From: a virus
Reading direction: 5' to 3' (one strand)
Virus record (IMG/VR): IMGVR_UViG_3300009156_000360
Span: 1-30,142 of that record
Length of the DNA: 30,142 bases
The notes beneath the pieces were generated by a model. The model saw only the letters and a list, made by a program, of their open reading frames with translations. It was not told where the DNA came from and did no database searches. Positions 2,676 to 7,673 of this stretch are shown piece after piece. The position numbers and the translations under genes were made by a program. The first letter of the stretch is position 1, and each line of letters opens with the position of its first letter.

Positions 2676-2942
2676 CTACCCGATCTTCTCGACCTTGTAG
2701 CCCTGTGCGGCGAGGAGGGCGATGGCGTTTGCCTGCTTCTGGCCACTGGCCTTCTTCCTCCTGCGCTCGATGGCCTTGAGTCCGGCATGGAACACGGTGT
2801 CGAGTAGGTCGGCCCGATACTTGACCTCGGTATTCGCCAGCAATGCCGCGAATCGTCCGTGGAACTTGCGGCTGATAACGAGGTCGCCGTTGTTGTTCGT
2901 GTCCGTGCTCTGTGCTGTCGTCTGTGTCTTCTTGCTACCCAT
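2676..2942 (-). CDS. Ribbon-helix-helix-like protein, paralog A
   Basis: The 88-residue product has a polar start, then a strand (DLVISRK, residues 20-26), a helix (FHGRFAALLANTEV), a loop (KYRA) and a helix (DLLDTVFHAGLKAIERRRKK) and a basic Ala-rich tail. The loop/helix region aligns by eye with the product of 1802-2038 (DLLxxVxxxGLKxxxxRxK). AGGAG lies 10 bases before the ATG at 2942; the longer frame upstream has no support. As the first gene left of the divergent control region, it is well placed to bind the repeats there, but that is inference. Confidence 0.65.
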   Translation of the reverse strand: MGSKKTQTTAQSTDTNNNGDLVISRKFHGRFAALLANTEVKYRADLLDTVFHAGLKAIERRRKKASGQKQANAIALLAAQGYKVEKIG

Positions 2943-3073
2943 GGTGTGCTCTCCTGTGGGTGGAGCTAGCTCGGCCTGCCCTGCCCTCACCCCTATCTCT
3001 GGCCGGGAGTACCGGCCCCACCCTATACGTAGCAAGCCGGATGCCACAGCCGAGCCCAACGCAACACAACCCG

Positions 3074-3188
3074 TCGTATGTCGAGGTCGGCCCACCACAG
3101 CCCGTGGCACCGGTCGCCTGTCTGGTGTCCGCCGGTGAGACACTTGGACACCCCAAGCGGTTGTGGTGCGACCTCGGCTCACATACGA
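3074..3188. other. Long imperfect inverted repeat, candidate structured RNA
   Basis: Three stacked helices are visible: TCGTATGT (3074-3081) with ACATACGA (3181-3188), CGAGGTCG (3082-3089) with CGACCTCG (3169-3176), and CACCACAGCC (3093-3102) with GGTTGTGGTG (3159-3168, one G-T pair). Bulges are GCTC (3177-3180) and GCC (3090-3092). Inside, GGTGTCC (3124-3130) pairs with GGACACC (3146-3152). The 26 paired positions across 115 bases are unlikely by chance. Which strand is transcribed, if any, cannot be told from the sequence. Confidence 0.65.
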
Positions 3189-3197
3189 CCCCTTGCG

Positions 3198-3212
3198 CTT
3201 TGTGGCACAAAG
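3198..3212. repeat. CTTTR-N5-YAAAG palindromic repeat, copy 1
   Basis: CTTTGTG-G-CACAAAG is a perfect 7-base inverted repeat. It shares the CTTTR-N5-YAAAG layout with 3394-3408 and 3430-3444. Such spacing fits a dimeric repressor operator. Confidence 0.5.
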
Positions 3213-3262
3213 TCGGGATGATCGCGGTCCTATGTCCGCCCGTGGACACCAGACGCCTGTTC

Positions 3263-3285
3263 GGTCCAAAGCGCTTTACCGGACC
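3263..3285. repeat. Palindrome GGTCC-AAAGCGCTTT-ACC-GGACC
   Basis: A 10-base perfect palindrome AAAGCGCTTT (3268-3277) is flanked by GGTCC (3263-3267) and GGACC (3281-3285). It uses the same AAAG/CTTT half-sites as the neighbouring repeats. Confidence 0.45.
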
Positions 3286-3393
3286 AACTACCGTGCGCGT
3301 ACGAGGGCTCGGTCCGACCATGTGCTTTGGTTCACACACTAGTCAACGCCACAAACCACATCAGCCGCTCGAAGCCCTTTGCTTGCTTAGGTC

Positions 3394-3408
3394 CTTTATG
3401 GCGTAAAG
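3394..3408. repeat. CTTTR-N5-YAAAG palindromic repeat, copy 2
   Basis: CTTTATGGCGTAAAG has the same half-sites and the same central spacing as copy 1, differing at a few inner positions. Confidence 0.5.
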
Positions 3409-3422
3409 TTGATGATAGGACC

Positions 3423-3444
3423 CAAAGCACTTTGCCTCGTAAAG
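3423..3444. repeat. Overlapping palindrome and CTTTR-N5-YAAAG repeat, copy 3
   Basis: CAAAGCACTTTG (3423-3434) overlaps CTTTGCCTCGTAAAG (3430-3444), so two dyad elements share the CTTTG half-site. This is the closest copy to the rightward promoter. Confidence 0.5.
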
Positions 3445-3548
3445 CTCACTATCCCATATAGCATGGAACCAAAGGTGCGAAGGTTTTTACAGGCCCCACA
3501 AAGGTATGGGGTGACTTTGACTACGACAAGTGGTCCATTGACACGATA

Positions 3549-3578
3549 TTGACAGACCTTAATGTCCCGTGGTAGTAT
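3549..3578 (+). promoter_or_regulatory. Rightward sigma70-type promoter
   Basis: TTGACA at 3549-3554 and TAGTAT at 3573-3578 are separated by 18 bases. A second TTGACA lies at 3538-3543, with a weaker possible -10 (TAATGT, 3560-3565). The first pair would start transcription near 3585, right at the ATG of the HTH gene, which has no Shine-Dalgarno. Confidence 0.55.
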
Positions 3579-3585
3579 TTCGGTC

Positions 3586-4053
3586 ATGGATGCCTCGAAG
3601 TTTCGAAAACTTATCGATCAACACAAGGCAGGTAGCACCACCTTGGCCCAGGTCGACGCCGAGATAGCGGCCTACGAAGAGGACCCGGACCAGTACCTAG
3701 TACAAAACCCGACGCCGGACAGGGACGGCGTGGTTAGACACAGGGATGGGACCCCGATATATACGGGGGATTTCGTGTTTCCGGGCATCAATATGAGCGA
3801 TATCGCAAGGGATACAGGACTGACGGTGGGGGGAGTAAGCAGGATGTTCAACGGAGACCGCAAGGCCCGACTACACACGCTAATGAGCGTGGCCCACCTC
3901 TACACAGGGGGAGACGTGGCCGCAGTACGGCTGGTCATACAGAAGCGGGTGATGAGGCGGCTAAAGGAGGACAAGGAGTTCAGGCATGCGATGAGCCCGG
4001 AGCAAAGGGAGAGGTTGATCCACAACGCAGGGCTGGAGGTGGTGTATGGGTGA
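3586..4053 (+). CDS. Helix-turn-helix transcriptional regulator
   Basis: The 155-residue product has a helical N-terminus (residues 1-35), a linker, then a HTH near residues 70-107 (NMSDIARDTGLTVGGVSRMFNG, where the GLTVGGVSRMFNG part is the recognition helix region) followed by a helix (LHTLMSVAHLYTGGD) like Cro/C1 or XRE domains. A basic C-terminal helix follows (RLVIQKRVMRRLKEDKEF). It probably binds DNA, perhaps the repeats upstream. The frame also has an ATG at 3562, but 3586 fits the promoter better; neither has a ribosome site, so a leaderless mRNA is possible. It overlaps the next gene by 8 bases. Regulator role is likely; exact class is not certain. Confidence 0.7.
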   Translation: MDASKFRKLIDQHKAGSTTLAQVDAEIAAYEEDPDQYLVQNPTPDRDGVVRHRDGTPIYTGDFVFPGINMSDIARDTGLTVGGVSRMFNGDRKARLHTLMSVAHLYTGGDVAAVRLVIQKRVMRRLKEDKEFRHAMSPEQRERLIHNAGLEVVYG

Positions 4054-4540
4054 GGAGACAGCGGTAGGCCTAAGGATAGAAGACTTCGAAAGTGACGAGG
4101 CCCAGCCATTCGTGCTGGTGGATGCCGAGGTAGTAGGGAAATCGACCCTGACGCTCGAAGCCCGGAAGCTGCTGGTCGAGGCTAAGGCAGAGGGGGTGCC
4201 GACCAAAATAATCGCCATGCAGCTGGACGTCAGCGAGGCCACAGTCGACCGCATATGGCGTGACTTCATAAAGGAGAATACCACAGCGCTAAGCGACCTC
4301 GAGCAGACCGTATACCATCGAGTCATCAGGCGCAAGTCTGTCAGGGCTATCGAGGCTGGGCTGGAGTGCACGAGGGACCCATATAGACAGGCCTCGGTGG
4401 GGATCGCGGTAATGAAGGGGATTGGTGAGTTCAGGTCTGAAGCAGACGCGGGTAGCAAAACGGTCAACATACTAGTCAACGCCGTACCACCAGACTGGAA
4501 AGGTCGGTACATTCAGGGTAAGCAAGATACAAAGGAGTAG
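4046..4540 (+). CDS. HTH protein, possible terminase small subunit
   Basis: The 164-residue product has an acidic N-terminus, a HTH at about residues 50-76 (VPTKIIAMQLDVSEATVDRI, then WRDFI), a helical middle (residues 80-128) and a C-terminal segment (NILVNAVPPDWKGRYI) that resembles the tails of some small terminase or terminase-like DNA-binding proteins. A DNA-binding HTH, a helical oligomerisation region and a C-terminal tail are the usual layout of TerS, which recognises packaging sites. However, it lies 5 kb before the large subunit rather than next to it. It could equally be a regulator paired with the upstream HTH gene, which it overlaps. DNA binding is well supported, TerS only moderately. 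Confidence 0.6.
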   Translation: MGEETAVGLRIEDFESDEAQPFVLVDAEVVGKSTLTLEARKLLVEAKAEGVPTKIIAMQLDVSEATVDRIWRDFIKENTTALSDLEQTVYHRVIRRKSVRAIEAGLECTRDPYRQASVGIAVMKGIGEFRSEADAGSKTVNILVNAVPPDWKGRYIQGKQDTKE

Positions 4541-4542
4541 GT

Positions 4543-4800
4543 ATGAATTGGAAACATTGGCTACGTGGGCTCGCGGCTGCAGCAGTAACAGGTTCCTCGA
4601 CTGCGGTCCTATCAACCATCGGTACCAACGCGACAGGTGACCCCCTCAACTGGCACCAGATTCTCACCATCACAGGGTTCAGCGGTGTCGTTAGTGCTGC
4701 TGCTTACCTCAAGCAGAGTCCGCTTCCGGCTGAGACGGAGACGAAGACGACAACGGTCACGGTCGAGCAAAAGAAGGAAACCACGAGGGACGGGGAGTAG
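4543..4800 (+). CDS. Holin-like small membrane protein
   Basis: The 85-residue product begins MNWKHWLRGLAAAAVTG. It has two hydrophobic segments, about residues 8-28 (LRGLAAAAVTGSSTAVLSTI) and 38-56 (HQILTITGFSGVVSAAAYL), and ends in a charged tail (QKKETTRDGE). The AAAYLKQSPLP motif after the second segment is one I recall from small phage holin-like proteins. Holins form membrane lesions that time lysis. AAAGGAG overlaps the stop of the preceding gene. No endolysin is recognisable nearby, so the lysis role rests on size, topology and motif only. Confidence 0.6.
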   Translation: MNWKHWLRGLAAAAVTGSSTAVLSTIGTNATGDPLNWHQILTITGFSGVVSAAAYLKQSPLPAETETKTTTVTVEQKKETTRDGE

Positions 4801-5128: not shown

Positions 5129-6523
5129 ATGAGATTCAAGGCTTTTCTGTTAGTATTTCTGGTTCTTCTGTCATCTCTCATTGCTTACCCTCAGGCCGGT
5201 ACGGTCACCGTCAAGGCCCCGTACGAGAACTCCGCCACTTTCTCCTCCTCCACCTCCTCTACCTGTATGGGTCCCGTCCCCGTCGGCACTTTCTACTGGA
5301 CCCTCCGATGGGAGAACCCAGTAGGTACGGTGTCAGGGGGCACCGTCAAGCTTCAGGGTTCTATGTCCTCCACCTGTGCCTCCCCAGCCGACATCATCGC
5401 CGCCCAGACCGCGACGTCAGCCGGTACGGTTAATGGTACTGCTGGTGGCTACCGTTATGTTCAAATGGTCTTTGCCTCTTACTCCGGCACCGGCTCGGTT
5501 AAGGTCTTTGTCGCAGGTGACAAATCAGCAGCGGCCTTGGGTTCTGCCGTCACCGTCACCTCCGGTAACATAACGGTATCGGACGGCGCAGGTGCCCTGA
5601 ACGTCATATGCGACTCTGGTTGCGCTGGTGGTACTCAATACACCGAGGACGCCGCAGCTGCAGCTGACCCTATCGGTGGTGCGCTCAACTTAGTCCGTGC
5701 CGATACTCCCGGCGCTGTCACCAATGCTAACGGCGATAACGTGTCGGCACGTGGTACCAACTTCGGGGCTATGTATGTCACCCATATCGACCAGAATGGG
5801 GCCTTGTTCACCGCCGATGGTGCCGCAGTCGCTGGTGTCCCCCTCCGTATCTCAGGCAAGGACGGGTCTGGCAACACCCAGGACATCATCACCGATACCA
5901 CAGGTAACCAGACGGTAGTTGGTACTGGTACCGCCGGTGCCGCCGCTGGTGGGGTCCTTACTGTTCAAGGTGTCGCCTCCATGACCCCCATCCTTGCTAC
6001 TGTCAGCCAGAGTACAGCGTCCAACCTCAACGCCACCGTGGATAGTGAGTTACCCCCCGCTGCTGCCTTGGCCGATGCTACCGCTAACCCCACCGTTCCC
6101 GCCGTTGGTGCCTTCATGATGGCTTGGACTGGCTCCAATTGGAATCGTGTTCAGGCCTCGGTCGACGGTTGCAGCGGCACTACCCGATCCCGCGTCCGTA
6201 TCAAGTCCGATAACACCAACAACGACGACGAGACACAGATCAAGGCATCATCAGGTACACTGTGCAGCATAACAGGGTCGAACGCCAATACCACGACCGG
6301 TGTATATGTCAAGTGTACCAACCTCACCGCAGCTAGCACTACGCCCGGATCGAGCGCCATCTACTACAGCGTGCTCATTCCCGCCTCTCAGGAGGGTGGT
6401 GCCGTCGACCTTAACCTCGCCTTTGATACAGCCCTCACCTGCTACCTTGCTACCGGCAAGGCCGATTCCGACGCCACCGACCCGGCGCAGGACGATGCGG
6501 AGGTCTATGTCATATATAACTAG
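5129..6523 (+). CDS. Secreted or virion beta-rich protein with Sec signal peptide
   Basis: The 464-residue product starts with a clear signal peptide: basic MRFK, a hydrophobic core (AFLLVFLVLLSSLIAY) and a PQA|GT cleavage site near residue 23. The mature part is Ser/Thr/Gly/Ala-rich and beta-predicted. Residues 175-225 contain YTEDAAAAADP...LVRADTPG...NGDNVSARGTNFGAMYV, a pattern I recall from many predicted phage virion proteins. Several cysteines (CMGP, CDSGCAGG, DGCSG, CSITG) could form disulphides outside the cytoplasm. AAGGAAGG precedes the start. It overlaps the next secreted-protein gene by 17 bases. A virion adhesin or an exported host-surface protein are both possible. Confidence 0.65.
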   Translation: MRFKAFLLVFLVLLSSLIAYPQAGTVTVKAPYENSATFSSSTSSTCMGPVPVGTFYWTLRWENPVGTVSGGTVKLQGSMSSTCASPADIIAAQTATSAGTVNGTAGGYRYVQMVFASYSGTGSVKVFVAGDKSAAALGSAVTVTSGNITVSDGAGALNVICDSGCAGGTQYTEDAAAAADPIGGALNLVRADTPGAVTNANGDNVSARGTNFGAMYVTHIDQNGALFTADGAAVAGVPLRISGKDGSGNTQDIITDTTGNQTVVGTGTAGAAAGGVLTVQGVASMTPILATVSQSTASNLNATVDSELPPAAALADATANPTVPAVGAFMMAWTGSNWNRVQASVDGCSGTTRSRVRIKSDNTNNDDETQIKASSGTLCSITGSNANTTTGVYVKCTNLTAASTTPGSSAIYYSVLIPASQEGGAVDLNLAFDTALTCYLATGKADSDATDPAQDDAEVYVIYN

Positions 6524-7673
6524 ACTAACCACAGTCCTTCTTCTCCTCCTGCTGGCCCCGCCCAGCGCTTTTGCTGCTTACGGCTATTACCGTGCCGTAG
6601 ACATTGATTCTGTTGGCTCTACCCTTACCGACTTCACCATCACCGTCTGCTTCAATGGCTCTGCCCCATGTAACGCAACTGTATCGGGCCTGAACCAGAC
6701 CGGGGGTGGGGAACACGTTACTCAGGCTGATGGTGATGATATTGCCTTCGGCAGCGACAACACATGCAATACCAAACTGAAGTGGGTCCTCGTCCGGTAC
6801 GTGGCGGCGACAGGGGAGCTAGAGGCCAAGGTCAAGGTCACCCTCGGTACCTCGGTCACCACCATTTACATGTGCTACGGTGATGCCGGTGTTACCACAT
6901 TCCAGGGCGGCTCTCAGGGCGATGCCTTTGATACCAATACCAAGGCATTCTTCCCATTCCCAGACGGCACCACCTTGGACGTCAGTGACTTCTCGGTCAG
7001 CAATGCGGATGGGACCAAGGTCAATACCCCAACCGCCACAGCCGGTAAGCTCGACGGAGGGATCGAGTTCGACAACTCCGCCGACCAGTACGTAACCCTC
7101 GGTAACCCTGCTGCTCTTCAGATTACGGGCGACCTCACCATCTGTGTGTCGTTCAACCTTACCGGCTCTGGTGATGGTAATAGCGGTATTATCTTCTCCA
7201 AGGACAAGGACACCGGGGGCCGTGCCTATACTATGGACCTAGAGGCCACGGTGCCTCGTTTCTACTACAATGGTGGTGGGGCGGGTGACACCATCACCTC
7301 ATCCACCAACGTGACCGCTGGCGTCTGGTACCGCATCTGTAGTGTGTTTGATTCGGTTGCTTCTAATATGAGTACCATCCACCTGTACATTGATGGGTCT
7401 GATGCAGCCACCCCTGTTAGTGGGGCACCCACCTCTATCCCCTCTGCTACCGCCAACGTCCTTATTGGTCGCCGCGAGTACTCGGGGTTTGAGCAACCAG
7501 CCGATGCCAAGATGGATGACCTAGTCGTTGCTACCAGCCCTAGGTCGGCTGACTGGATATCTGCCGATTACGCAGCCTTCTTCACCCCTGGGTCGTTCAT
7601 CGCGATCGGAAACGAGAACTCGGTAGCAGTAACAACGGTAAGAGGCGGAATAACTTTGCGTGGAGTCCAATAA
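6507..7673 (+). CDS. Exported DUF2341/LamG-like (lectin-type) protein
   Basis: The 388-residue product starts at an ATG preceded by GCGGAGGTCT inside the end of the previous gene; an upstream in-frame ATG at 6300 has no support. It has a signal peptide (MSYITRLTTVLLLLLLAPP, then SAFA|AYGY). Residues 24-125 (YYRAVDIDSVGSTLTDFTIT ... GGEHVTQADGDDIAFGSDN ... TTIYMCYGDAGVT) match the DUF2341 pattern. Residues 140-345 (GIEFDNSADQYVTLG, ITGDLTICVSFNL, WYRICSVFD, STIHLYIDG) match a concanavalin/LamG-like sandwich. Such domains usually bind glycans. In a phage this suggests receptor binding or modification of the host surface. The ligand is unknown. Confidence 0.72.
   Translation: MSYITRLTTVLLLLLLAPPSAFAAYGYYRAVDIDSVGSTLTDFTITVCFNGSAPCNATVSGLNQTGGGEHVTQADGDDIAFGSDNTCNTKLKWVLVRYVAATGELEAKVKVTLGTSVTTIYMCYGDAGVTTFQGGSQGDAFDTNTKAFFPFPDGTTLDVSDFSVSNADGTKVNTPTATAGKLDGGIEFDNSADQYVTLGNPAALQITGDLTICVSFNLTGSGDGNSGIIFSKDKDTGGRAYTMDLEATVPRFYYNGGGAGDTITSSTNVTAGVWYRICSVFDSVASNMSTIHLYIDGSDAATPVSGAPTSIPSATANVLIGRREYSGFEQPADAKMDDLVVATSPRSADWISADYAAFFTPGSFIAIGNENSVAVTTVRGGITLRGVQ

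Follow-up and report, generated by a model that had tools for sequence, protein, structure and literature searches.

The imperfect inverted repeat at 3074-3188 is most plausibly a side effect of recurring, predicted protein-binding sites with mirror-image symmetry, and we judge it probable, from the comparison of two phage sequences, that these are enhancer or operator sites in duplex DNA that drive a leftward operon with a sigma-54-type promoter, opposite the gene of an XRE-type regulator. The window, by which we mean the whole stretch of DNA analysed here, is a linear IMG/VR virus record of 30,142 bases that is not known to be complete. In the model that we favour, the 115-base structure would be double-stranded regulatory DNA holding several mirror-image sites, each 18 bp long and of kind B or kind A, which would lie upstream of a sigma-54-type promoter driving the leftward operon that starts at 2942 (Table 1). 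A dimeric, probably oligomeric activator would bind the B and A sites and, through DNA looping and ATP hydrolysis, would open the complex of host RNA polymerase and sigma-54 poised at 3046-3031. A sigma-70 promoter would serve the regulator gene that heads the opposite operon, and a phage-specific repressor would likely use the CAAAG sites between 3198 and 3444 as operators.

Table 1. Features in and around the divergent intergenic region (coordinates of the window; site centres are counted from the transcription start placed near 3020).
Feature	Coordinates	Strand	Remarks
First leftward gene	2676-2942	-	88 aa; AGGAG before ATG; start MGSKKT identical in L005
Sigma-54-type promoter (candidate)	3031-3046	-	TGGCAT-N5-TTGCT (-24/-12); putative transcription start near 3020
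B1 dyad	3063-3080	no strand	17 bp beyond sigma-54 element, centre about -51.5; second-best B match in 30 kb; overlaps left end of hairpin
Imperfect inverted repeat / hairpin	3074-3188	no strand	read as DNA with B1 right half, B2, A1 and B3
B2, weak B-like site	3091-3108	no strand	left arm of helix 3; third intergenic B match, rank 13 in record; may be chance
A1 dyad ACCGGTCGCCTGTCTGGT	3109-3126	no strand	centre about -97.5; within inner hairpin; 63 bp from sigma-54 element
B3 dyad ACCCCAAGCGGTTGTGGT	3150-3167	no strand	centre about -138.5; right half is right arm of helix 3; best B match in 30 kb
C-type palindrome CTTTGTGGCACAAAG	3198-3212	no strand	
A2 dyad ACCAGACGCCTGTTCGGT	3248-3265	no strand	centre about -236.5
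C-type site CCAAAGCGCTTTAC	3266-3279	no strand	
C-type palindrome CTTTATGGCGTAAAG	3394-3408	no strand	
TGATAGGACCCA	3413-3424	no strand	12/12 conserved with L005 4401-4412; dyads flank the 12-mer in both phages
C-type sites CCAAAGCACTTTGC and CTTTGCCTCGTAAAG	3422-3444	no strand	
Sigma-70-type promoter TTGACA-N18-TAGTAT	3549-3578	+	serves rightward regulator gene; -10 ends 7 nt before ATG; sole consensus-scan match
XRE/Cro-CI-like helix-turn-helix regulator	3586-4053	+	apparently leaderless

The structure itself is real and sits, as the preliminary description had it, in a divergent control region devoid of genes: the stretch from the leftward start codon (ATG, 2942) to the rightward one (ATG, 3586) holds no convincing gene, and both starts, the leftward one together with its AGGAG, are kept in a relative, IMG/VR contig L005, which has the same divergent region at 3908-4556. 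Over the alignments, the two phages are 68% identical in the terminase, 62% in the portal, 41% in the regulator and 37% in the first leftward gene. This contig was the sole close relative returned by IMG/VR queries with the terminase, the portal, the regulator and the small gene, and all comparisons presented here rest on these two sequences; two scans of bacterial and archaeal genomes gave no relative and hence no prophage or host. The regulator resembles phrog_4268 (E 0.00099) and Pfam HTH_3 (E 0.0016, below the Pfam cut-off), and terminase, portal and head genes follow on its right side. The leftward genes adjoining the intergenic region gave no family match, in a fragment that is probably incomplete.

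The folding of the hairpin agrees largely with what had been described. Its three stacked helices are present at 3073-3081/3181-3189 (9 bp, perfect), 3082-3089/3169-3176 (8 bp) and 3093-3102/3159-3168 (10 bp, one G-T), as is the palindrome that starts shortly after them at 3198, whereas the inner 7-pair hairpin, where the A1 dyad lies, is interrupted in the minimum-free-energy (MFE) fold. Compared with dinucleotide shuffles, 3074-3188 folds better on both strands: its MFE is -62.2 kcal/mol on the plus strand, against a shuffled mean of -44.5 (z -4.30, with none of 200 shuffles as good), and -56.8 on the minus strand (z -2.95). To call this far beyond chance was nevertheless too strong, as z fell below -4 in 10 of 2002 windows of the record, several of them in coding DNA (115-nt windows at steps of 30, which did not sample the exact 3074 frame), and coding stretches of the record reach z values of -5 to -6. 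As an inverted repeat, 3073-3189 scores 42, which falls at about the 95th to 99th percentile (40 and 45) of the top scores obtained from Markov copies of the intergenic region. In the whole record its rank is about sixth, and the strongest inverted repeat nearby is a competing pairing, 3105-3268, with a score of 53.

The same stretch may owe its fold to a structured RNA, should it be transcribed leftward or rightward with the hairpin as a leader element or a small RNA, and this we regard as unlikely. The excess of fold energy is real, the homologous stretch of L005 also folds well, and 24 of the 44 hairpin pairs can still form there, with less pairing when the partners are slid. Since so many pairs are retained, selection may act on the inverted repeat itself. 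The aligned pairs nevertheless comprise 14 that are unchanged, 6 changed on one side and 4 changed on both, the other 20 being broken, and with one relative the covariance analysis found no more double changes than shuffling gives (four were reached by 108 of 500 shuffles). No Rfam family matched, whether the window was searched at the gathering score or 2940-3600 at E 1. The better-folding strand, moreover, differs between the two phages, and what the sequence keeps is dyads at fixed distances. The two sequences do not seem to call for an RNA role. L005 folds strongly across its whole site array, with z values down to -7 and a better strand that changes along the array; over its B sites, 4064-4178 on the minus strand (z -7.0) and 4268-4382 on the plus strand (z -6.7) have folds even stronger than those in the window.

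Other roles for the structure were considered too. A DNA hairpin or cruciform, extruded from the inverted repeat or recognised as a single strand by an initiator at a replication origin, would fit a long imperfect inverted repeat placed where the strand skew changes; the skew turns just where the coding direction does, neither phage has DnaA boxes in its intergenic region, and in L005 most of the stem is lost while the sites persist, making such a role very improbable. Nothing points to a packaging site, the terminase gene being 6 kb away, and no terminator-like match was found in 2943-3586.

What the two phages have in common is a set of short blocks. Between their intergenic regions, 57 blocks of 20 bases are identical at 15 or more of 20 positions, against a mean of 3 in simulated pairs, and three at 18 of 20, against none. 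The conserved blocks include TGGCAY-N5-TTGC on the minus strand, the dyad A ACCGNACGCCTGTTYGGT, the dyad B near ACCACAACCGGTTGTGGT and the 12-mer TGATAGGACCCA. Dyad A, of 18 bp, occurs twice in each record and nowhere else in them at up to 3 mismatches. Dyad B is also of 18 bp, and a B matrix trained on six L005 sites only, when run on the entire 30-kb window, placed its two best matches at B3 (20.5 bits) and B1 (15.1 bits), with a weak third local match at B2; in none of 2000 Markov copies of the intergenic region did the top score or the runner-up come as high. B3 shares 19 of 20 bases with an L005 site. In IMG/VR, the DNA pattern of the outer arm had 17 matches, none related by tblastx, and the A pattern is absent from the distant phage Tunturi_3.

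These sites would account for much of the hairpin, because mirror-image and repeated B and A sites have halves that can pair with one another. B1 supplies the outer left arm through its right half, and B2 together with the right half of B3 forms the arms of helix 3, so that the stem contains much of the B array; the left half of B1 can alternatively pair with the right half of B3 at 11 of 12 positions. Helix 2 and the outer right arm have no identified site to account for them.

The spacing of the sites is equally conserved. Counted from the T of TGGCAY, the offsets of B1 (17) and A1 (63) are identical in both phages, that of B3 is 104 in the window and 127 in L005, which has a 23-base insert between, and that of A2 is 202 and 192. 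Dyads B1, A1, B3 and A2 would be predicted activator sites upstream of the sigma-54-like element. Their conservation and spacing are observed; that proteins bind them, and which proteins, we infer. Activator sites commonly lie about 70-150 bp upstream (PMC3844500), as A1 and B3 do, and no IHF-like sites were found. A swapped order of B sites between the phages was considered and dropped, the B matrix giving the same B-A-B-A order in both.

Sigma-54 (RpoN) enhancer-dependent promoters of bacteria follow the consensus TGGCACG-N4-TTGC[A/T]. Such promoters are marked by a GG (-24) and a GC (-12) with a spacing of 10 bp, in a TGGCAC/TTGC context, and the candidate of the window has these marks and matches 10 of the 11 scored positions, with 11 of 11 in L005; each is the best of its record, and the exact TGGCAYNNNNNTTGCW occurs once in the window record and once in L005. 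A matrix made from the RpoN sites of GC-rich Bradyrhizobium listed in PMC13207237 that are most like the consensus, many of them predictions by its authors, also ranked the site first in each of the two whole records. Its scores there, 15.6 and 15.9 bits, are in the range that the training sites span, and the P values are 0.0037 and 0.0010 for the intergenic regions and only 0.06-0.08 each for the whole records. A matrix of 24 Salmonella sites (PMC3844500) left the window site outside the six best of its record and ranked the L005 site second; part of this poor score may come from the AT-rich spacers in the Salmonella set and from the lack, in both of our sites, of a purine following TGGCAY. 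Of 12 matches to a combined pattern of the sigma-54 element and an A site, only L005 was related, while the others had no tblastx similarity and look like chance; the sigma-54 pattern is absent from Tunturi_3. Promoter-like matches such as these are observed, and the reading of the site as a sigma-54 promoter, which comes from sequence comparison, stands somewhere between an even chance and slightly better than that.

The host lineage bears on the sigma-54 reading, because cyanobacteria are not known to carry rpoN; if the host were a cyanobacterium, the sigma-54 part would fail. The nearest portal and capsid among cultured phages are those of Tunturi_3 (24-28% identity), a phage of the acidobacterium Tunturiibacter, and the terminase also matches cyanophages at 22%. 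Sigma-54-type promoters are rarely reported in phages; a search of one literature collection found no paper describing such a promoter in a phage, which is not proof of absence.

On the regulator side of the hairpin, where all C-type CAAAG sites of the window lie, L005 has the same sigma-70 promoter arrangement (4519-4548), and the regulator mRNA would be leaderless since the -10 box ends 7 nt before the ATG. In both phages, the -10 box ends 7-8 nt before the start (window 3573-3586; L005 4543-4557). The intergenic region of the window has 10 copies of CAAAG, and all other parts of the record together have 36 (P 1e-8, uncorrected for the 312 words compared); L005 has 6 copies of ACAACCG in its intergenic region and none elsewhere (2e-13). 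Operators that differ in specificity from one phage to its relative would be expected to show such enrichment of different words. A minus-strand -10 box (TATCAT/TATCAC) may lie within the 12-mer TGATAGGACCCA, with no good -35 to accompany it.

These same sites may instead belong to an operator array without sigma-54, in which the dyads would be operators of phage regulators (the XRE protein and another) on sigma-70 promoters, and TGGCAY-N5-TTGC would be something else, such as a further protein site. The regulator adjacent to the array has a recognition region nearly identical in both phages, which fits the conserved A sites, and the phage-specific enriched words fit repressor specificities; the Salmonella matrix does not support sigma-54, and no gene with a sigma-54 activator domain (PF00158) was found in the window or L005 fragments, both probably incomplete. 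Against this, the consensus scan of the intergenic region gave no sigma-70-like minus-strand promoter, and the sigma-54-like sites are the best of each record and at homologous positions, so that we regard this alternative as doubtful, at about one chance in four. We hold it about as likely as its opposite that a tailed phage has its leftward operon under host sigma-54 with an enhancer array of two alternating dyads, as a divergent switch tied to a host stress or nutrient activator; both the use of sigma-54 and the direction of control are part of this proposal.

The sigma-54-enhancer model shares with bacterial sigma-54 promoters the -24/-12 spacing, the core bases, the mirror-image sites about 50-240 bp upstream and, in both phages, the same B1 and A1 offsets, and differs from them in that the case lies in a phage, lacks a purine after TGGCAY, uses two different alternating dyads and shows neither an identified activator nor an IHF-like site. 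With the switch regions of temperate phages (of the lambda cI-cro type, and in phages with dispersed operators) it shares divergent operons, an apparently leaderless XRE-type regulator gene and several mirror-image operators whose sequence differs between related phages; unlike these, it appears to have a sigma-54-type promoter for one of the two operons, and neither a cro-like gene facing the regulator nor an integrase was seen in the fragment. Phage structured leader RNAs resemble the region in the strong predicted fold of an intergenic stretch, but here no Rfam family or convincing covariation was found and the sequence is kept as putative protein-binding dyads. Sigma-54 is best known for nitrogen, flagella and stress genes, and if the model holds, this phage lineage would sense the physiological state of its host through sigma-54. 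Arrays of mirror-image protein sites can yield strong folds, which calls for caution with folds in phage control regions.

Several other genes were seen along the way. The window encodes a 125-aa protein with an RNA recognition motif at 171-548 on the minus strand (Pfam RRM_1, E 6e-12), which has no relative among 50,697 phage records. At 4046-4540, upstream of the packaging genes, lies an HTH_23-like protein, possibly a small terminase subunit, and at 6300-7673, preceding the terminase gene, a protein with a Laminin_G_3 / concanavalin-like lectin domain (E 1.8e-19). In L005, the leftward operon holds a DUF2786 protein at 1439-2650 on the minus strand (E 9e-16), which several other phages have too.
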